A stretch of DNA of 11,544 bases from an uncultured Paracoccaceae bacterium (GTDB taxonomy: Bacteria; Pseudomonadota; Alphaproteobacteria; Rhodobacterales; Rhodobacteraceae), in NCBI GenBank assembly GCA_913054485.1, contig CAJXHQ010000048.1, forward strand, positions 1-11,544, in the 5' to 3' direction. How positions within the stretch are numbered: position 1 is the stretch's first letter; each line of letters opens with the position of its first letter. The notes beneath the pieces are model-generated. The model had not been told where the DNA came from. It searched no databases and saw only the letters and a list, made by a program, of their open reading frames with translations. Of the stretch, positions 103 to 11,544 are shown piece by piece. Position numbers and translations under genes: made by a program.

Positions 103-1801
<1,699 letters not shown>

Positions 1802-1812
<11 letters not shown>

Positions 1813-2119
1813 CTTTCAGCTCTCCCATGATGTGCTGGTTGAAGCCGTAAATGCGGCGGTGGCCGCGGACCGGCACCAGCATGACTTCGCGTTTCTGGCC
1901 CGGCTCAAAGCGCACCGCTGTGCCTGCGGGGATGTCCAGCCGCATGCCAAGGGCGGCGTAGCGGTTGAAGTCCAGCGCCGGGTTGGTTTCGGTGAAATGA
2001 TAGTGGCTGCCCACCTGAATAGGCCGGTCGCCGGTGTTGGTGACCAGAAGCTGCGTGTTGCGGCGGCCCTCGTTCAGGGGGATGTGGCCCTCGGCCGGGA
2101 GGATTTCACCGGGGATCAT
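1802..2119 (-). CDS. ureB: urease beta subunit
   Basis: UreB is the small beta subunit that packs with UreA and UreC in the (ABC)3 urease trimer. The 105-residue product matches the usual length (about 101-106) and begins with the family pattern MIPGEILP. It contains the conserved [20 protein letters not shown] core, the [11 protein letters not shown] stretch, and a typical end with [12 protein letters not shown] and RIYGFNQ. The start ATG overlaps the stop of the preceding small gene (ATGA), and the 3' end overlaps ureC by 11 bases. Both overlaps point to translational coupling within one transcript. Confidence 0.97.
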
Positions 2120-2286
2120 TTGCGGCTCCGTGCATAAGCGCAGACTGCAGCGCCGCCAAACGCCGCCAGCACCAGAACCAGCGGCAGCCAGCCTGCGGCC
2201 TCATGCGGGTGGAGATGTGCGCCGCCGTGGGCCAGAGCCGGAGCAGCGGCAACGAGGGTGATCAGGGTCAAGGCAAATCTGTTCAT
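2116..2286 (-). CDS. small His-rich secreted or membrane protein in the urease operon
   Basis: This 56-residue protein sits between ureA and ureB. Residues 1-19 form a classic signal peptide ending in ALA, with predicted cleavage before His20. The mature N terminus is histidine-rich ([10 protein letters not shown], residues 20-29; four His). A hydrophobic segment at about 32-51 ([13 protein letters not shown] region) and a basic tail RSRK follow, so the product is probably a small inner-membrane protein with an outward-facing His-rich head. A strong ribosome-binding site (GAGGAG, about 8 bases upstream) and the ATGA overlap with ureB show it is a real gene. The AHGG-type mature start resembles the N terminus of HupE/UreJ nickel permeases, but the protein is far too short to be one. 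A role in nickel capture is only inference. Confidence 0.85.
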
Positions 2287-2298
2287 CGGGGCGGCTCC

Positions 2299-2601
2299 TC
2301 AGCGAATGGGATTGTGGACGGTGACCAGCTTGGTGCCGTCGGGGAATGTGGCTTCGACCTGAACGTCGTGGATCATCTCAGGCACGCCTTCCATGCAGTC
2401 CTCGCGGCGGACCACCTGCGCGCCGGCCTCCATCATGTCTGCGACAGAGCGCCCGTCGCGGGCCCCCTCGACCACCGCTTCGGTGATCAGCGCAATGGCT
2501 TCCGGGTGGTTCAGCTTGACGCCGCGCGCCAGCCGTTTGCGGGCCACCTCGGCAGCCATGGCCACCAGCAGTTTTTCACGTTCACGGGGGGTCAGGTTCA
2601 T
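2299..2601 (-). CDS. ureA: urease gamma subunit
   Basis: UreA is the smallest structural subunit of urease. The 100-residue product is exactly the family length. It shows the family start [17 protein letters not shown], the central [11 protein letters not shown] stretch, the [12 protein letters not shown] helix region and the C-terminal [17 protein letters not shown]. It starts 3 bases after the ureD stop, with GGAGA upstream inside the end of ureD, and is followed after 12 bases by the small membrane-protein gene. Separate ureA and ureB genes, rather than a fused one, are usual for Proteobacteria. Confidence 0.98.
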
Positions 2602-2604
2602 GTT

Positions 2605-3483
2605 TCAGAGTCTCCAGGCAAGCGGTAGGCCATCGCCGGTCAGGCGGTCGAGGATCGGCAGCAGGATTTTGCGCAGCTCGAAACTGTCCGGTGCCAGCAG
2701 GCGCAGGTACAGCGTGTCGGGATGCAGAAGAGTGGCACCGCCGGTTTCAGGCAATGCGGCGCGCAGAGGCGCAAGATGGGTTTCGGCGTCTGGCGCGACC
2801 AGCAGAAGGCTGGCCATTGCGGCGGCCCCGCCGCCTGTTGCGGTCCCGGGCAGGGTGGCGGCGATATCACCCTCCAGCCGGGTGGAATCGTAGAACAGGC
2901 GCTGGCCTGCGCGGCGGATGTCGATACGGTCGCGAAACAGGCCCTCGGTCAGGGTCTCCCCCATGCCGGTGCGTCCGAAGACCAGCGGTTCCACCATCAG
3001 GAAGCGGGCGCCTGCGTCCAGATCAGCGCGCAGGCTGCGGCTGTAGCGGCAGGCATCATACAGGATCGTCTCCTGCGGCAGCCAATGCAGCGCGGCACCT
3101 TCTTCGGCGTAAAGGCGGGTCTCCATCCGGGCGGTTTCATCCGGCTGGGACCGGTAGGCGCGTTCGGCTGCTTGGGTCGTGACGGTCAGCCGGCTGTTTG
3201 CTGCGGCGCGGGCAGTCACGGCAAAACGGTCGCCGCCTGTGATGCCCCCGGCCGAGTTGATCATCACCGCCTCGAGCCAAGGCCGCCCCTGCGGGAACAG
3301 CAGTTTCATCGCACCGGACTGGCGCAGATCGCGGATCCGGCTCTGGCCGTCCTTGAACTGCGACGCAACAGCAGCGGTGCCGCGCGCGCGCGGTTGCAGC
3401 GAGGCGGCTGGCGTGCCGGTTATGTCGTCCTGATAGCTGATGGATCCCTCACCCTGCCTGAAACTGAACGGCGATTCCGCCAC
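2605..3483 (-). CDS. ureD: urease accessory protein UreD (start uncertain)
   Basis: UreD is the scaffold that binds apo-urease and recruits UreF and UreG for nickel-site assembly. Family features include LQPRARG near the N terminus, SGAMKLLFPQG, MINSAGGITGGD with its glycine-rich core, TVTTQAAERAYRS, LHWLPQETILYD, and FGRTGMGE. The start is unresolved: there is no in-frame ATG before the internal Met of SGAMKLLF. The frame stays open up to a TTG at 3561, but that codon lies inside the terminator of the upstream gene. I chose the GTG at 3483, which has GGAG 8 bases upstream and gives 292 residues, slightly long for UreD. Starts further in would need rare codons. Identity is sure; the N terminus is not. 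Confidence 0.92.
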   Translation of the reverse strand: MAESPFSFRQGEGSISYQDDITGTPAASLQPRARGTAAVASQFKDGQSRIRDLRQSGAMKLLFPQGRPWLEAVMINSAGGITGGDRFAVTARAAANSRLTVTTQAAERAYRSQPDETARMETRLYAEEGAALHWLPQETILYDACRYSRSLRADLDAGARFLMVEPLVFGRTGMGETLTEGLFRDRIDIRRAGQRLFYDSTRLEGDIAATLPGTATGGGAAAMASLLLVAPDAETHLAPLRAALPETGGATLLHPDTLYLRLLAPDSFELRKILLPILDRLTGDGLPLAWRL

Positions 3484-3548
3484 TTCGGCGGCTCCGGTTT
3501 CGCGCGTATGCGCGCGCAAGGGAAGGTTTCTTGGCGGTTTTGTGACGT

Positions 3549-3593
3549 AAAAACCGGGCAAATGCCTAAAAATGCGGCATTGGCTGCCCGGTT
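3549..3593 (-). terminator. Rho-independent terminator after the PACE transporter gene
   Basis: On the minus strand AACCGGGCA (3593-3585) pairs with TGCCCGGTT (3560-3552), 9 bp. A 3-base bulge follows, then AATGCC/GGCATT (6 bp) with a 9-base loop. The stem ends in a run of five T (3553-3549). It begins 17 bases after the stop of the transporter gene and should separate it from ureD. The ureD promoter is therefore probably between here and 3484, though I see no clear -35/-10. Confidence 0.8.
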
Positions 3594-3609: not shown

Positions 3610-4038
3610 CTAGCTGCCCGTTGCGGCGGCCGGGTGCACAAAGCGCAGGCGCAGCTGGTCATAGGCCCAGTTGAACAGGATGGCGTAGACAAAGAAGAAC
3701 ACCACCGCACCCAGGTCCATGATCAGCACGGTCAGGAAGTCTTCCTGCAGCACCAGCATCAGCACCGGAATGGTGGCAAAGATCAGCCCGCCTTCGAACC
3801 CGGCCCCGTGCGCGATCCGCTGCCGCAGCCCGCGCGCGGCGCGGTCAGCCCCAAACAGGCGGTCGTAAATCAGGTTGTAGAGGTAGTTCCAGCCCATAGC
3901 GATCAGGCTCAGCGTGATGCTGAGCCCGGTCATCGCCGCGGCGCTCTGCTGAGTCACAAACATCGCCAGCGGCACAAATAGGACCAGTGCAAAGGCTTCG
4001 AACAGGAGGGAGTGGAGGATGCGCTCTTTGTGAGTCAT
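3610..4038 (-). CDS. PACE-family multidrug/biocide efflux transporter (AceI-like)
   Basis: This is a 142-residue, four-helix inner-membrane protein made of two tandem bacterial transmembrane pair domains (about 5-65 and 74-136). It matches AceI-type proton-driven exporters of chlorhexidine and related amphipathic cations or short diamines. Visible signatures are HSLLFEAF with Glu14 (equivalent to the essential Glu15 of AceI), WNYLYN (Trp50), HGAGFEGGLIFATIP in the second half, and NWAYDQLR near the end. The ATG at 4038 is preferred because AAGGA lies 9 bases upstream and it matches the family N terminus. A longer in-frame start at 4107 would add unconserved residues. The gene is divergent from a LysR regulator and followed by its own terminator, so it is unlikely to belong to the urease operon. 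The family is clear; the substrate is not. Confidence 0.92.
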   Translation of the reverse strand: MTHKERILHSLLFEAFALVLFVPLAMFVTQQSAAAMTGLSITLSLIAMGWNYLYNLIYDRLFGADRAARGLRQRIAHGAGFEGGLIFATIPVLMLVLQEDFLTVLIMDLGAVVFFFVYAILFNWAYDQLRLRFVHPAAATGS

Positions 4039-4130
4039 CTTTGGGTATCCTTGTTTCACAGGCTGCCTATTTAATCGCGTTTCCGGATATGCAAAGTTAG
4101 AAACCATCTGAAATTAGGATGGGTTGCTGG
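4039..4130. promoter_or_regulatory. divergent promoter region between the PACE and LysR genes
   Basis: On the minus strand TTGCAT (4094-4089) and AAATAG (4072-4067) are separated by 16 bases and fit a -35/-10 pair for the transporter gene. ATC-N9-GAT at 4106-4120 contains a LysR-type T-N11-A motif with partial dyad symmetry, placed just upstream of the chosen LysR start. LysR proteins usually bind such sites and both repress themselves and activate the divergent gene. The region is AT-rich compared with its surroundings. Assignments are by eye only. Confidence 0.4.
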
Positions 4131-5693: not shown

Positions 5694-6060
5694 TTTAAAC
5701 CTTTCAAATCTGCAGCCAGAGTAGGCGCGGATTCCGGCAATTGTCAAAAGCCATCACGCGCTTTGCCGGCGGGTGCGCCCAGCGGGTTGCGCCGGGCCCG
5801 CCGGTGCGGCGTCCTACCGCCGTGATCTAGTGACTTATAGGTTGAGTAAGGGACAGAAGAAGACTTCGGCCTCCGGTTGACCGATTGTCATTTTCTGGCC
5901 GAAGAAGCCTGCTAGGTGGCTGATCTGACCTAGCAGTAGGATCACAGCGGCGGATTCCGGGCCAAGTCTCACCGGATTTCAGCCAGGTCGGCAGGCCACC
6001 CGGCCGCTGCTGTGATTTTTACTGCACCTTTGAGTGGAGCACGGCGGTGGATCTGAGCCC
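5694..6060. other. gene-free interval with four successive inverted repeats
   Basis: I found no convincing coding frame here on either strand. The interval holds: CCGGCGGG/CCCGCCGG (5766-5773 with 5797-5804, GC-rich); CTTCGGCC/GGCCGAAG (5864-5871 with 5897-5904); CTGCTAGGT/ACCTAGCAG (5909-5917 with 5928-5936, loop of 10); and ATCACAGC/GCTGTGAT (5941-5948 with 6009-6016), which encloses a further CCGGG/CCCGG pair and is followed by TTTTT. The TetR promoter should lie at its left end. The last hairpin is 44 bases from the aminotransferase stop, but its T run faces the plus strand. Confidence 0.75.
5836..6021 (+). ncRNA. candidate structured small RNA with terminator
   Basis: Three stems follow each other almost without gaps (5864-5904, 5909-5936, 5941-6016), and the last runs into T at 6016-6020 on the plus strand, as at the end of a small RNA. 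No plus-strand gene leads into this terminator. A possible -10 (TATAGG, 5836-5841) lies upstream, but I see no convincing -35, so the 5' end is a guess. I do not recognise a known RNA family; it lacks tRNA, SRP and tmRNA landmarks. The alternative is a set of 3' untranslated hairpins of the minus-strand aminotransferase operon. Confidence 0.3.
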
Positions 6061-7386
6061 TTATTCTGGCACTGACGCACGGATCGCAGATTGCAGTTTT
6101 GCGATGATTTCATCAATGTGCCGGTCTTCTATAATGAAGGGTGGCGCCAGCAGGATATGATCCCCGTTCCGCCCGTCCCGGGTGCCGGACATCGGGTAGC
6201 AGATCAGCCCTGCGTCAAAAGCCGCCTTCTTGAGTTTTGCGGCGGTTTTCAGGGCCGGATCAAAGGGGGATTTGCTGTCGCGGTCGGCGACCAGCTCGAT
6301 GCCGCGGAACAGCCCGCGGCCGCGGATGTCGCCCACATGCGGGTGCTGGCCAAAGGCCTGCTCCAGTGCCGCCTGCAATTTGTTTCCCATCGGGGTGACA
6401 CGCTGCACCAGCCCGCGGTCCAGAAGCGCCCGCACAACGGCGAGTCCTGCTGCGGTCGCAACCGGGTGGCCGATATATGTGTGGCCGTGCTGGAAGAACC
6501 CCGAGCCGCCGTCGATGGCGGCGTAGATCTTATCCGTGCAGAGCATGGCCCCGATGGGCTGGTAGCCGGCTCCGAGCCCCTTTGCGATGCAGAGGATATC
6601 CGGAGCCACGCCGTCGGCCTCGCATGCAAACAGGTGACCTGTGCGTCCCATACCGCACATGACCTCATCCAGGATCAGCAGCACGCCGTATTGGTCGCAG
6701 ATCTCGCGGATGCGCTTGAAGTAGCCCTCAACCGCGGGCACCGCGCCGAGCGTGGCCCCCACAACAGGTTCCGCCATGAAGGCCATGACCGTATCAGGTC
6801 CAAGGCGCAGGATCTCGTCCTCCAGCGCCTGCGCGGCCTGCTGGCCGTAGTCAAAGCTCGACATGCCTTCGGGCTTTTGCGCGTATTCATAACAGGCGTC
6901 GATATGGCTGATGTCGATCAGAAGCGGCGCAAACTGCTGGCGCCGCCACTCGTTGCCGCCGGCCGCCAGCGCGCCCAGCGTGTTGCCGTGGTAGCTCTGC
7001 CGCCGCGCGATCACATGACGGCGGTTCGGCTCGCCGTTTTCCAGGTGGTACTGGCGGGCAAGCTTGATGGCGGCTTCGGTCGCCTCGGAGCCGCCGGAGA
7101 CGAAATAGACCCTGTCCAGATTGCCCGGCGCATTTGCGATCAGAAGGTCCGCCAGCGCCTCGGCCGGTTCCGATGTGAAGAAGCCGGTATGCGCGAAGGC
7201 CAGCTTGTCCACCTGTGCTTTCACCGCCTCGGCAATCTCAGCGTCCCCGTGGCCAAGACAGGAAACCGCCGCCCCGCCGGACCCGTCGAAGTAACGTTTG
7301 CCGCTGGCATCAATCAGGTAGCAGCCTTCGCCGCCCACGGCGACAGGCGGGTTGGATTTGCAGTGACGGGGAAAAACATGGGACAT
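6061..7386 (-). CDS. class III PLP-dependent aminotransferase
   Basis: This 441-residue fold-type I, class III (omega-type) aminotransferase transfers an amino group from an amine or omega/beta-amino acid to a keto acid. Visible signatures are the PLP-phosphate motif SGGSEAT (about residues 97-103), the YHGNTLGAL loop, the DEVMCGMGRTG motif with PLP-ring Asp240, and the catalytic Lys269 in CIAKGLGAGYQPIGAM. HGHTYIGHP and the C-terminal RGRGLFRGIEL follow. The ATG at 7386 has a strong AAGGAGG 5 bases upstream; an in-frame TTG at 7401 overlaps that site and is rejected. It is the last gene of the operon, 24 bases after the BKACE-like gene. Class III substrates cannot be predicted from these motifs. 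In this setting a beta-amino acid or an N-demethylated product is plausible (inference). Confidence 0.93.
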   Translation of the reverse strand: MSHVFPRHCKSNPPVAVGGEGCYLIDASGKRYFDGSGGAAVSCLGHGDAEIAEAVKAQVDKLAFAHTGFFTSEPAEALADLLIANAPGNLDRVYFVSGGSEATEAAIKLARQYHLENGEPNRRHVIARRQSYHGNTLGALAAGGNEWRRQQFAPLLIDISHIDACYEYAQKPEGMSSFDYGQQAAQALEDEILRLGPDTVMAFMAEPVVGATLGAVPAVEGYFKRIREICDQYGVLLILDEVMCGMGRTGHLFACEADGVAPDILCIAKGLGAGYQPIGAMLCTDKIYAAIDGGSGFFQHGHTYIGHPVATAAGLAVVRALLDRGLVQRVTPMGNKLQAALEQAFGQHPHVGDIRGRGLFRGIELVADRDSKSPFDPALKTAAKLKKAAFDAGLICYPMSGTRDGRNGDHILLAPPFIIEDRHIDEIIAKLQSAIRASVPE

Positions 7387-7410
7387 GGAGGCCTCCTTCA
7401 AGGCTGATAC

Positions 7411-8199
7411 TCAGGCCGCCGGGCAGGCGGTTACAAGGCCTTCGCCGCAAGCGGCGTCCAGCAGTGCGCGCACTGAGGCGGCGTTGCTGGGCAGAAGCTT
7501 GCCCTCGGGCGTGTGGATGTTGTTTTCGAAACCGATACGGATATTGCCGCCGCGCCGGATGGCCTCCAAGAGGCAAGCACGCTCGTTCCGGCCGAAGGCG
7601 CAGACGGTCCAGCTGAGCCCCATGCCATCTGTGGCGGCCAGGAAACCGTCGAGATCAGAGGGCTGCGCCGGGACCGGCGGAGTGTACTGGCCGAGGACGA
7701 AGATCACATCGTCCTGGCCCGCGCGGATCACGCCCTCCTCACGCCAAGCCGTGAGCTGTGCAATGCAGGCGGGCGTGTAGAGGATGTGCTGCACCTGCGT
7801 GCCGGCCTCAGCCGCCACCGCATAGGCCCGCGCCGCCAGAACAGGGTCGCGTGCCATTTCGCGGATAGACACCGAGGCGGAGGCGGGCCGCAGCGCCTCC
7901 AGACAGGCCAGCTGCGCCGGGACATCGTAGGTGCTGGCGCTTTCTGTGGTGACCTGAATACCCATGCCGGGGGCAGCAGCCTCGACCGCAGCGACGGCCT
8001 CGCGGTAGCGGCCTGCGTCCAGCGAGTGGCCGCCGTCATCCTTGCGGATGTGCAGATGGATCGCGTCCGCGCCTTCGGCAAAGCAGGCCTTGGCGGTTGC
8101 GGCCAGCTCATCCGCTGTCACCGGCAGGGCGGGATGATCGGATTTCTGCCGCCGCGCCCCGTTGGGCGCGACCATCAGGGTGAAGGGTTTGATCATCAT
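7411..8199 (-). CDS. DUF849 / BKACE-family beta-keto acid cleavage enzyme, divergent
   Basis: This 262-residue TIM-barrel protein belongs to the family of 3-keto-5-aminohexanoate cleavage enzyme (Kce). Such enzymes use a divalent metal to react a beta-keto acid with acetyl-CoA, giving acetoacetate and a new CoA ester. The family start (NGARR then HPALPVTADEL), the metal motif HLHIRKDDG (His48, His50), QVTTES, FVLG, and GNIRIGFEN with Arg221 and metal-ligand Glu225 are present. By my alignment to Kce from memory, Asp231 is Asn226, Ser82 is Thr84 and Glu143 is a hydrophobic residue near 139, so chemistry or substrate may differ. Its ATG overlaps the stop of the flavoprotein gene (ATGA; AAGGGCGG upstream), indicating coupling. 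It is shorter than typical BKACE proteins (about 275-310). Confidence 0.9.
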   Translation of the reverse strand: MMIKPFTLMVAPNGARRQKSDHPALPVTADELAATAKACFAEGADAIHLHIRKDDGGHSLDAGRYREAVAAVEAAAPGMGIQVTTESASTYDVPAQLACLEALRPASASVSIREMARDPVLAARAYAVAAEAGTQVQHILYTPACIAQLTAWREEGVIRAGQDDVIFVLGQYTPPVPAQPSDLDGFLAATDGMGLSWTVCAFGRNERACLLEAIRRGGNIRIGFENNIHTPEGKLLPSNAASVRALLDAACGEGLVTACPAA

Positions 8200-10580
8200 G
8201 CACCGCCCTTCATGCGCAGGCCTTCGGGGTCGTAGGCCGGGGCGAATTGCAGCCGGGCTGCATAGCGCTGGCCGGTGACCTCGACCGTGACCTGCTTGCC
8301 GTCCAGGCTGTCCCCGTGGACATGGGCCAGCGCAATCGGTTTGCCGATGCGGTAACCGAACCCGGCAGAGGTGGTGTGGCCGATGATCCCGTCATCCGCA
8401 TAAATCGGCTCGTGGCCCAGCGGCACGGCGGCCTCGTCTTCAAAGATCACGGTGACCAGCGAGCGGGTTCCGTCCGCCCGCCGCGCATTCACCGCGTCCG
8501 AACCGATGTAATCCTTCTTCTTGGAGGCCATCATCGCCATGCCGGTCTCAATGGGGGTGATATCGCTGTCCAGCTCGTGCCCCATGGCGGCAAAGCCCTT
8601 CTCGATCCGCATCGAGGTCTGCGCGTAAAGACCGGCAGGAGAGGCCCCGGCAGCGGTCAGCGCGTCATAGACTGCCTGTGCGTTCTCCGCCTTCATGGTG
8701 ATCTCCCAGCCTGCTTCACCGACATAGGACATCCGCACCGCGCGCACATGTTTGCCTGCGATATGCGCGGGGCCGACCTTGAAGTAGCCAAGGTCATTCA
8801 GCTCGGGCGCGCCGCACTCGGATAAGATCCGCGCCATCAGGCCCAGCACGGCGTAGTCTTCGGTGCTGTCGGCGAGTGTCACGTCAAAGCCGTCTGAGTG
8901 GCGCTTGAACCAGGAAAGATCGCGTTTGATCGCGTTTGTGCCGGTGAACAGGCGGTAATGCGTGTCGGTGATCCGGTGCGCGGTCAGATCGCTTTCATAG
9001 GTGCCGCGTTCATTCAGAATGGCAGTGTAGATCGCAGACCCCGGCGCCTTGCCCATATTGGCGGCACAGACGTGGTTCAGGAAGGCTTCGGCATCCGGGC
9101 CCTCCACCTCGATCTTGCCAAAGGGGGAGGCGTCGAAGATGGCGGCCGCCTCATGCGCCGCCTTCACCTCGGCGGCGACGTTCTCGAACCAGTTCGGGCG
9201 CTCAAAGGTCAGGTCCGGCTCCTGCGTCTTGCCGAAATACAGCGGTCGCTCCCAGCCGTAAACCTGGCTGAATTGCGCACCTGCCGCCTTGTACGAGGTA
9301 TCAAGGGGCAGGGCACGCAGACCCCGCGCAGTTGAGAGCTGACGCCCGGGGTATGCAATCTCGTAATGCGTGCCGAGGATCTCGGGCGCGCGGGCCATCA
9401 GGTGGTCGATGTTGTTGAATATGGGCGCAAAACGCTTGGCGTCGGCCTCGCCCAGATCGTAAGCGGTGTGGCCGTGCACGATGCAATGGGCGAGGTTCAT
9501 ACCCGCGCCGCCGCCCGAGGCCAGCCCGACCGAGTTCATGCCGCAGCCCAGGAACAGCCCCTTGGTCTCAGCCGTCTCGCCCAGCATGAACATGCCATCG
9601 GGGGTGAAGCTTTCGGGACCGTTCAGCAGCATTTTGACCTCAGCCGTTTCCAGTGCCGGCAAGCGGTGCAGCGCGTTCATCATCATTGGTTCGAAATGCT
9701 CCCAGTCCTCGCCCAGGAGACCGAATTCGAAGTTCTCGTCCAAGATGCCCGGCTTGATCGGTTTGCCCATTGGTTCAAAGCACCCCACCAGCAAACCGCC
9801 GGAATCGTCGCGGATATAGAGGTGATTGTCGTGGTCACTGAGGGTCGGCATGTTGCCGGCGATGCCGTCGATGGGCTTGGTGAGAAGGTAGAAGTGTTCA
9901 CAGGCCAGTGCCGGGACTTCGGCGCCGGCCATGGCGCCGGCTTCGCGCGACCACAGGCCAGTACACAGCGCAATGGCATCGCAGCTTACGGTGCCTTGGG
10001 AGGTTTCGACGCCAACCACTTTGCCGTTTTCGGTGAGGATGCCGGTCACGCCGGTGTCCTCAAAAATCTTCGCGCCCAGCCCCTTTGCGGCTTTAACCAG
10101 CGCGGCGCAGACATCAGAAGGCGAAACCCGCCCGTCATCCGGCGACCAGACCGCACCGATCACGTCGTCGGCATTCATCAGCGGCCAGCGTTCCTTGGCT
10201 TCGCCCGCGCTGATCGACGTCGCTTCGACACCGTAAGCATGGGCAAGGGCTTCTTGACGCTGGATGTGGGCCATGCGGCCTTCGCTGGTGGCAATCGACA
10301 GGGACCCCTTCTGGATCCAGCCCACGTTCTGGCCAGTCTCCGCTTCCAGTTGCGAATAGAGATCGACCGAATACTGGATCATCCGCGTCAGGTTGCGCGA
10401 ATGGCGCAGCGCGCGGACCTGGGCGGCCGAATGCCAGGTGGTGCCGGAGGTGAGCTTGTTACGCTCCAGCAGGATGGCGTCGGTGACGCCCATCTTGGCC
10501 AGGTGGTAAAGGGTCGAGCAGCCCATGATGCCGCCGCCGATAACGACGACAGAGGCGTGGGAGGGGAGTTGATGTGCCAT
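8196..10580 (-). CDS. dimethylglycine/sarcosine-dehydrogenase-like FAD protein fused to a GcvT folate domain
   Basis: This 794-residue two-module enzyme first has an FAD-dependent amine oxidoreductase (DAO fold, about residues 8-370) with the dinucleotide motif VVVIGGGIMG (Gly15-Gly20). His50 in GTTWHSAAQ is at the position of the covalent FAD histidine of dimethylglycine dehydrogenase. An FAO_M-type linker follows, then a GcvT-like folate-binding module with its C-terminal barrel (about 430-790; motifs RMSYVGEAGWEI, RIEKGFAAMGHEL, PIETGM). Relatives oxidise N-methyl groups and pass the carbon to tetrahydrofolate. The residues after the FAD histidine (SAAQVRALRH) differ from the WHAAG type, so dimethylglycine or sarcosine is not assured as substrate. 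The ATG at 10580 gives the family length; a longer frame from a TTG at 10670 has no conserved residues. It is the first gene of the operon. Confidence 0.93.
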   Translation of the reverse strand: MAHQLPSHASVVVIGGGIMGCSTLYHLAKMGVTDAILLERNKLTSGTTWHSAAQVRALRHSRNLTRMIQYSVDLYSQLEAETGQNVGWIQKGSLSIATSEGRMAHIQRQEALAHAYGVEATSISAGEAKERWPLMNADDVIGAVWSPDDGRVSPSDVCAALVKAAKGLGAKIFEDTGVTGILTENGKVVGVETSQGTVSCDAIALCTGLWSREAGAMAGAEVPALACEHFYLLTKPIDGIAGNMPTLSDHDNHLYIRDDSGGLLVGCFEPMGKPIKPGILDENFEFGLLGEDWEHFEPMMMNALHRLPALETAEVKMLLNGPESFTPDGMFMLGETAETKGLFLGCGMNSVGLASGGGAGMNLAHCIVHGHTAYDLGEADAKRFAPIFNNIDHLMARAPEILGTHYEIAYPGRQLSTARGLRALPLDTSYKAAGAQFSQVYGWERPLYFGKTQEPDLTFERPNWFENVAAEVKAAHEAAAIFDASPFGKIEVEGPDAEAFLNHVCAANMGKAPGSAIYTAILNERGTYESDLTAHRITDTHYRLFTGTNAIKRDLSWFKRHSDGFDVTLADSTEDYAVLGLMARILSECGAPELNDLGYFKVGPAHIAGKHVRAVRMSYVGEAGWEITMKAENAQAVYDALTAAGASPAGLYAQTSMRIEKGFAAMGHELDSDITPIETGMAMMASKKKDYIGSDAVNARRADGTRSLVTVIFEDEAAVPLGHEPIYADDGIIGHTTSAGFGYRIGKPIALAHVHGDSLDGKQVTVEVTGQRYAARLQFAPAYDPEGLRMKGGA

Positions 10581-10731
10581 TGGCAAGATCCGCTGAGATG
10601 CGCCCGGGTTCTGGCCGGGCAGGGGAGAGTGAGGTTGCTGAAAAGATGTCGGAAATACAAAACATGTCAACGGCGCTGAAAAATAACGTATGTTTTAATT
10701 TTGGCCCCACCCGGAAGACAAGGCGAATCAA
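10581..10731. promoter_or_regulatory. divergent control region between the flavoprotein operon and the RpiR gene
   Basis: On the minus strand a perfect TTGACA (10670-10665) could be the -35 of the catabolic operon, with a weak -10 (CATCTT, 10648-10643) at 16 bases. AAAACAT (10659-10665) and ATGTTTT (10690-10696) form a perfect 7-bp inverted repeat whose half-sites are 31 bp apart, about three helical turns, and the left arm touches the -35. This is a plausible operator for the divergent RpiR regulator. No clear promoter for the RpiR gene is seen. The centre is AT-rich relative to the flanking genes. Confidence 0.45.
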
Positions 10732-11544
10732 ATGGACCCGACCCTGAAAACAAAAACAATTTCAACGCTGAAGCAGGTCCTGCCAGAGCTGTCGCCGCGC
10801 CTGAAAACGGTGGCAAAGTATATCGTGGACCACCCGTCGGACTTCGGATTGGACCCGATCCGCGAAACTGCGCGCAAGGCGGGCGTCAGCACCTACACGC
10901 TGGTCCGCATGGCGCAGACGCTGGGATTTGAAGGCTACGAGGAGCTGCGCGAACCCTTCCGCCATGCGCTGGTCTCCTCCACCGAACTGGCCGAGCGCCC
11001 CCCCTGGGTGGACGAGCTGCGCAGCCGCAGCGCCCTGGGGCAGGTGCAGGCGGATGCGGCGGTGAACTCCATGGCAATCGTGCAGCGCTCGCTTGAACGC
11101 CAGACGGCAGAGCAGATGGAGCGGGTGGCGGCGCTGCTGCTGGGGGCCAACAATGTCTACCTGACCGCCGTGCGTGCCAGTTATGCGCTGGCCTATTACT
11201 TTCACTACGTGGGCCGTATGGCCCTGCCTTCACTGCAATTGATTCCGCGCCATATGAACAGCGCCATTGACGAGCTGAACTATGCGGACAGCAGCGACGT
11301 GATGATTGCGATCAGCTTTACGCCCTATTCGCGCGAAACCATCGAGGCCTGCAAGTTCGCCCGCAAGAAGGGGGTGAAGCTGGTCTTGATTTCCGATTCC
11401 GATGTGGTGTCTTCTGAATTCATGCCGGACGAAACTCTGGTCGCCTCAGTCATCAGCACCCATCATTTCGGCTGTTACGCAGGGGCAATGGCCGTGATTG
11501 AGAGCCTTCTGGCCATTCTGGTGAATCTCGGCGGGGAAGAGGCT
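10732..11544 (+). CDS. MurR/RpiR-family transcriptional regulator with SIS domain (3' end cut by window)
   Basis: 271 codons are open from the ATG at 10732 to the right edge, close to the usual full length of 280-300. Residues 1-77 form the RpiR helix-turn-helix: LSPRLKTVAKYIVDHPSDFG, IRETARKAGVSTYTLVRMAQTLGFEGYEEL. Residues about 125-270 are a SIS (sugar isomerase) fold: NVYLTAVRASYALAYYF, DVMIAISFTPYSRETIEAC, and KKGVKLVLISDSD. SIS domains of this family bind phosphosugars or other small acids; here the ligand is unknown. AAGGCG upstream is a fair ribosome-binding site. It is divergent from the flavoprotein-BKACE-aminotransferase operon, which it very likely controls together with itself. 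Confidence 0.93.
   Translation, partial: MDPTLKTKTISTLKQVLPELSPRLKTVAKYIVDHPSDFGLDPIRETARKAGVSTYTLVRMAQTLGFEGYEELREPFRHALVSSTELAERPPWVDELRSRSALGQVQADAAVNSMAIVQRSLERQTAEQMERVAALLLGANNVYLTAVRASYALAYYFHYVGRMALPSLQLIPRHMNSAIDELNYADSSDVMIAISFTPYSRETIEACKFARKKGVKLVLISDSDVVSSEFMPDETLVASVISTHHFGCYAGAMAVIESLLAILVNLGGEEA

Follow-up and report, generated by a model that had tools for sequence, protein, structure and literature searches.

The window, i.e., the whole stretch of 11,544 nucleotides (nt) analysed here (GenBank CAJXHQ010000048.1, contig C48 of a 75% complete genome of an uncultured Paracoccaceae bacterium), carries an operon for an FAD-GcvT enzyme, a DUF849 protein and a class III aminotransferase, in this order on the reverse strand and divergent from the gene of an RpiR-type regulator on the forward strand. 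It appears to be a real, conserved and dedicated catabolic module, a small gene set widely shared in marine bacteria. In marine dissolved organic nitrogen, the N-methylated and beta-amino fraction has been poorly mapped, and a compact module that comes with a transporter, a regulator and a likely operator of its own is a direct way to find the compound used. The original prediction, made from the letters of the stretch, had described a tight operon for the catabolism of N-methyl amines or beta-amino acids under RpiR control. The observation itself is confirmed: the coordinates, the spacing (the FAD-GcvT stop and the DUF849 start overlap as ATGA; 24 bases separate DUF849 from the aminotransferase) and the Pfam families were right. 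The interpretation is partly supported.

We favour, with modest confidence, the view that the genes form a self-contained catabolic module for one small, sometimes N-methylated, amino compound. A TAXI-type tripartite ATP-independent periplasmic (TRAP) transporter would import the compound. If it is N-methylated, the FAD-GcvT enzyme would oxidise the N-methyl group and pass it to folate. Removal of the amino group by the aminotransferase would then yield an oxo acid (most likely of the beta-oxo type), which the DUF849 protein would break down in a metal-dependent active site unlike that of the canonical beta-keto acid cleavage enzymes (BKACEs). The RpiR regulator would control the operon by binding a palindrome in the divergent gap. 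Gene content, conservation, palindromes and residue changes were obtained by computation; the reactions, their order, the beta-oxo acid and the binding by RpiR are what we infer.

Conservation of the Gene Neighbourhood

The search of the bacterial family, named Rhodobacteraceae here after the nearest named relatives, covered 149 genomes, 39 of which, the window's own included, have a DUF849 protein at E <= 1e-40. The 38 other genomes gave 39 loci, as one of them contributes two. An aminotransferase was counted at an identity of at least 55% within 1.5 kb, FAD-GcvT at a minimum of 55% when adjoining, TAXI and TRAP each at 45% or more in the same stretch, and RpiR, sought with the window's cut protein, within 4.5 kb. 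Module genes were counted by tblastn, since gene calling yields shadow frames in high-GC loci. The DUF849 gene has the aminotransferase next to it in 34 of the 39 loci, and TAXI and TRAP are both found in 22/39. FAD-GcvT adjoins in 9/39, with gaps of -6 to 22 bases, the other 30 having no orthologue there. Module genes also co-occur in other families and in a gammaproteobacterial metagenome-assembled genome (locus L053). As for transporters, for which the original prediction had proposed a neighbourhood comparison, an amino-acid ATP-binding cassette (ABC) transporter takes the place of TAXI-TRAP in L053 and in the alphaproteobacterial L137; the same ABC transporter lies beside a lone FAD-GcvT gene in L135. 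Of the 19 loci of the first set, the gene calls and neighbourhood counts used five (L039, L040, L043, L053 and L057); the rest were left out, including L041, L042 and L051, whose contigs match those of L126, L125 and L069 in length. A survey of further neighbours revealed an FAA-hydrolase-like gene in four loci (Pfam check on one), and other gene clusters common to at least three loci turned out, by eye, to be small or shadow frames.

The transporter belongs to the module, and the module extends beyond the window. The nearest named relative, Rhodobacteraceae bacterium Alg231_04 (L039), has 94% identity for FAD-GcvT, 82% for DUF849, 90% for the aminotransferase and 89% for RpiR. Its RpiR gene is followed by genes for a TAXI binding protein, a fused TRAP permease, Usp, an amidase and an Amidohydro_3 protein. 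Contig G000:C298 of the window's genome holds the end of a TAXI gene, a TRAP permease, Usp and an amidase, 80-92% identical to those of L039, and, judging from the L039 gene order, contigs C48 and C298 would adjoin.

The aminotransferase-DUF849 pair is the core of the module, and the demethylase was gained or lost more than once. In a tree of 42 aminotransferases (18 with and 24 without an adjoining FAD-GcvT; L060 and L085, which have a distant FAD-GcvT paralogue in the vicinity, were deliberately excluded), the FAD-GcvT label needs eight changes, of which well-supported branches force only three. With shuffled labels the mean is 13.8 changes, which means that the label also tracks kinship. 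Demethylation is an add-on, because 30/39 family loci have no FAD-GcvT orthologue adjoining DUF849. A plain amine may thus be what the core handles, its N-methyl forms being made accessible by the demethylase.

A number of observations weigh against a single dedicated module. An RpiR gene was detected within 4.5 kb in just 19 of the 39 family loci, and in 5/39 DUF849 lacks an adjoining aminotransferase. Among the 20 more distant loci described below, eight have no aminotransferase match at all. Outside the family, FAD-GcvT of at least 55% identity occurs in 13 of 385 genomes; five of them have a DUF849 gene in the same cluster, while the other eight carry orthologues (61-74% identical) without a DUF849 gene in the fetched stretch. 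Two of these eight have the DUF849 subfamily elsewhere, and six have no match at E <= 1e-25. The FAD-GcvT enzyme therefore also works outside the module. Finally, class III aminotransferases often act on terminal amines, in which case the product would be an aldehyde.

The DUF849 Protein

The AlphaFold model of the DUF849 protein (predicted local distance difference test 95.8) has Kce (2y7e) as its best match in the PDB, with a template modelling score of 0.87. Residues were compared in 175 subfamily sequences, namely 120 proteins (the best 120 of 2780 matches) and 55 loci, internal-stop frames, duplicates and rows of 225 residues or fewer having been dropped. As a reference we used the four other BKACE-family members encoded in the same genome, which are canonical by sequence. 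A further 20 more distant loci comprised 18 from 17 of the 32 genomes matched (398 genomes of the phylum were searched) and two from other-family genomes. The fold, the metal ligands and the equivalent of Kce Arg226 are common to the window's protein and canonical BKACEs (Kce 2y7d; PdKce 8rip). H48 is present in 175/175, H50 in 174/175 and E225 in 175/175 sequences, each also in 20/20 of the more distant loci. Arg221, the Arg226 equivalent, is found in 175/175 and Tyr141 in 169/175; two of the four own-genome BKACEs have Phe at the latter position.

In contrast to canonical BKACEs, the subfamily has both acidic residues and the STGG-type loop replaced. The equivalent of Kce Glu143 is Ile139 in 174/175 and that of Asp231 is Asn226 in 175/175, where all four own-genome BKACEs have Glu and Asp, respectively; both residues have a role in canonical BKACEs. 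The substrate loop reads TTE[AS], with the loop Gly changed to Glu86 in 175/175 (own-genome BKACEs: STGG in three, TAGM in one). Glu114, Gln137 and Cys200 are invariant in the 175 sequences and Arg16 is nearly so (172/175). In the more distant loci Glu86, Glu114, Gln137, Ile139, Cys200 and Asn226 are present in 20/20 and Arg16 in 18/20. By the secondary structure of the model, these subfamily-specific positions lie in or just after barrel strands. Arg16 takes the place of a Glu that in Kce meets the amino group; at a guess, it hints at a negatively charged group on the substrate.

Since the Glu/Asp pair and the STGG-type loop are replaced, canonical cleavage with acetyl-coenzyme A (CoA) is not to be assumed. 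The four curated BKACE models matched give 64-105 bits against cut-offs of 350-725, the best being 105 against 382. Acetyl-CoA cleavage as a standard step, as in the original prediction, is thus the part that is not supported. Judged by these residues, the chemistry is probably not what the annotation says, and the reaction of the subfamily may be new. Among the best 120 of 2780 matches, many close relatives bear the public-record name 3-keto-5-aminohexanoate cleavage protein, for which the active-site residues give no support.

We regard it as unlikely, though deserving serious consideration, that the DUF849 protein works as an ordinary BKACE, turning the aminotransferase product and acetyl-CoA into acetoacetate and an acyl-CoA, and that only its substrate pocket is different. 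The fold, with Kce as the closest relative, the retained H48, H50, E225, R221 and, mostly, Tyr141, and dehydrogenase neighbours that fit a beta-keto acid substrate (see below) all speak for such an enzyme. The replacements listed above, which persist in all 20 more distant loci, and the low model scores speak against it. In addition, no CoA-transferase, thioesterase or thiolase was seen among the clusters present in at least three loci, as inspected by eye on imperfect gene calls.

PMC6365646 describes canonical BKACE logic for deoxyribonate. DUF849 groups other than BKACE exist as well: a clustering paper (PMC4922564) tabulates them, one with decarboxylation activity. PMC12871164 describes BsfD, a DUF849 member that departs from BKACE chemistry, and calls the Tyr lost in BsfD common to all BKACEs. 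Unlike BsfD, which makes a phosphonate antibiotic, the window's subfamily mostly keeps this Tyr. Both the tabulated groups and BsfD lend some weight to a CoA-independent route in which the DUF849 protein would act by decarboxylation or hydrolysis on a beta-oxo acid or semialdehyde (e.g., malonate semialdehyde from beta-alanine), the operon being a beta-alanine-like or N-methyl-beta-alanine route; in this specific form it seems improbable. It is conceivable, if somewhat doubtful, that the subfamily is a new type of enzyme that would degrade a beta-oxo acid by a mechanism other than that of canonical BKACEs, one that may not need CoA. Together with the aminotransferase it would then form a widespread route for a beta-amino acid, to which the demethylase would be added, and from which it would be lost, as N-methylated forms become available.

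The Probable FAD-GcvT Demethylase

The closest solved relatives of the FAD-GcvT enzyme are dimethylglycine dehydrogenase (DMGDH; 5l46 and 4p9s) and then N,N-dimethylglycine oxidase (DMGO; 1pj5), with which it shares the domain order and the catalytic residues. His50, H229, Y255 and Asp531 are identical in 26/26 orthologues (the alignment left out L041, L042, L051, L060 and L085). We take His50 to be the FAD-linking residue, H229 and Y255 to be catalytic and Asp531 to contact folate, the last three corresponding to DMGO H225, Y259 and D552. Because these residues are present throughout, N-demethylation to folate, as first proposed, is likely, and the enzyme is likely a folate-dependent N-demethylase. 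Unlike DMGDH and DMGO, it shares an operon with aminotransferase and DUF849 genes and has conserved positions of its own: 28 are kept in at least 25 of the 26 orthologues and absent from seven own-genome paralogues (one of them short at the start). With every one of the 25 NCBIfam models listed (30 matched), its score stays below the cut-off.

Ordinary use of dimethylglycine or sarcosine, with unrelated neighbours, would agree with the closest solved relatives and their catalytic residues and with the orthologues that stand apart from DUF849 in 8/13 other-family genomes. Nevertheless, it is very improbable. The same genome has 13 other FAD-GcvT matches (31-49% identity, nine near full length), and the formation of glycine from dimethylglycine would need neither neighbour. 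Moreover, a search of the 38 family genomes at E <= 1e-215 gave nine orthologues (69-87% identity), 9/9 beside a DUF849 gene, and three other matches (48-50% identity) elsewhere. Elsewhere in the window's genome, on G000:C5 (L139), two FAD-GcvT genes, 48 and 32% identical to that of the window, lie side by side near an MTTB-family trimethylamine methyltransferase gene.

The RpiR Regulator and Its Putative Operator

The assumed control by RpiR is supported by lineage-specific palindromes in the divergent gap. There are 14 divergent gaps with an RpiR of at least 44% identity, and in 11 of them, the window's included, a palindrome like AATAACATATGTTATT starts exactly 27 nt upstream of a TTGAC element; L058, L059 and L064 lack this pairing. 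The other RpiR lineage, with 13 gaps, has sites like TGAAACATATGTTTCA (at least 13/16 matches) in 12/13, compared to 1/14 in the first lineage, and in its gaps the AATAACATATGTTATT palindrome reaches at most 11/16. That each of the two RpiR lineages goes with a palindrome of its own lends good support to RpiR control; a site that changes with the regulator lineage would be hard to explain otherwise. RpiR would be the protein that binds the palindrome. Shuffle values for the palindromes are not independent, since the consensus was read partly from the gaps scored and a number of loci are closely akin. The window's palindrome is the only site in the 75% complete genome with two or fewer mismatches to a closely related 17-base pattern. 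A general sigma-70 scan of the divergent gap found no promoter.

Possible Substrates

The substrate of the DUF849 protein is likely a beta-oxo acid, as the neighbours in the more distant loci suggest. Ten of the 20 have an aminotransferase of at least 44% identity nearby, and two (L184 and L185) have one of 34-35%. In the latter two, a gene of the 3-hydroxyacyl-CoA-dehydrogenase family stands just before DUF849, and L190 and L195 have another gene of that family. Enzymes of this kind produce 3-oxo acids, so a beta-oxo acid would be what these loci have in common: the dehydrogenases could form it from beta-hydroxy acids, and the aminotransferase would do so from beta-amino acids. L190 and L195 have Tyr16 in place of Arg16, which may mark a change of substrate.

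Carnitine is broken down by a carnitine dehydrogenase and a BKACE. The module resembles this route in that a beta-oxo acid would be fed to a DUF849 protein and the substrate would be N-methylated, and differs from it in having an aminotransferase in place of the dehydrogenase. The dehydrogenase of L184 has L-carnitine dehydrogenase as its best model, with 276 bits, below the cut-off of 414. As already suggested for the window, no carnitine dehydrogenase is found at the locus: none of the 11 window proteins scanned matches 3HCDH, and use of carnitine is considered unlikely.

Individual loci have neighbours of other kinds. In L058 (1367-4864), genes for a diaminopropionate ammonia-lyase (over the NCBIfam cut-off), a peptidase-like protein and an M20 protein lie near the module, which makes 2,3-diaminopropionate, or its N-methyl form, a candidate for the substrate. 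In L053 (98-1813), an aspartate ammonia-lyase-family gene is right behind RpiR, followed by the start of an MmgE/PrpD gene that is cut by the end of the stretch. A fumarase-like gene adjoins in L200, and L039 has the amidase and Amidohydro_3 genes, the amidase being present in the window's genome too. The leads from L058, L053, L200 and L039 did not recur in other loci.

The statement that no named pathway has exactly this gene set agrees with the literature: among the matches listed (titles and abstract starts, with subscription papers largely outside the scope), no publication describes it, and a published pathway may exist. For homarine degradation, likewise, no title or abstract start among the matches listed describes the set. 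A word search of a paper on methylated compounds in Phaeobacter (PMC11306105) gave no passage bearing on the module.

Features of the Window

The positions of the module's parts are listed in Table 1.

Table 1. Genes and putative regulatory elements of the module in the window.
Feature	Position	Strand	Basis
FAD-GcvT N-demethylase (dimethylglycine-dehydrogenase-like), 794 aa, likely	8196..10580	-	DAO, FAO_M, GCV_T and GCV_T_C over Pfam cut-offs
DUF849/BKACE-fold protein, non-canonical subfamily, 262 aa	7411..8199	-	PF05853, 183 bits vs. cut-off 24.8
Class III aminotransferase, PRK07483-type, 441 aa	6061..7386	-	Aminotran_3, 329 bits; NF005685, 762.7 bits vs. cut-off 485
RpiR-type regulator, cut by the window's end	10732..11544	+	HTH_6 and SIS over Pfam cut-offs
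Putative RpiR operator (palindrome like AATAACATATGTTATT)	10682..10697	-	13/16 positions match; starts 27 nt before TTGAC
TTGAC element, conserved, possibly -35 box of the enzyme operon	10666..10670	-	Fixed 27-nt offset from the palindrome

The remainder of the window holds the urease genes ureC, ureB, ureA and ureD (103-3561, reverse strand; Pfam). Antisense to ureC, at 1372-1659 on the forward strand, there is a match to the Rfam 5' ureB small RNA (RF02514, 114.9 bits), which may merely mirror the conserved ureC coding sequence. A PF05232 chlorhexidine efflux transporter-like protein (3610-4062, reverse strand) is divergent from a LysR regulator. Between the TetR gene and the aminotransferase gene, about 310 bases (5748-6060) are rich in inverted repeats. 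L039 has the TetR, LysR, BTP-like and urease genes after the module too, arranged as in the window.

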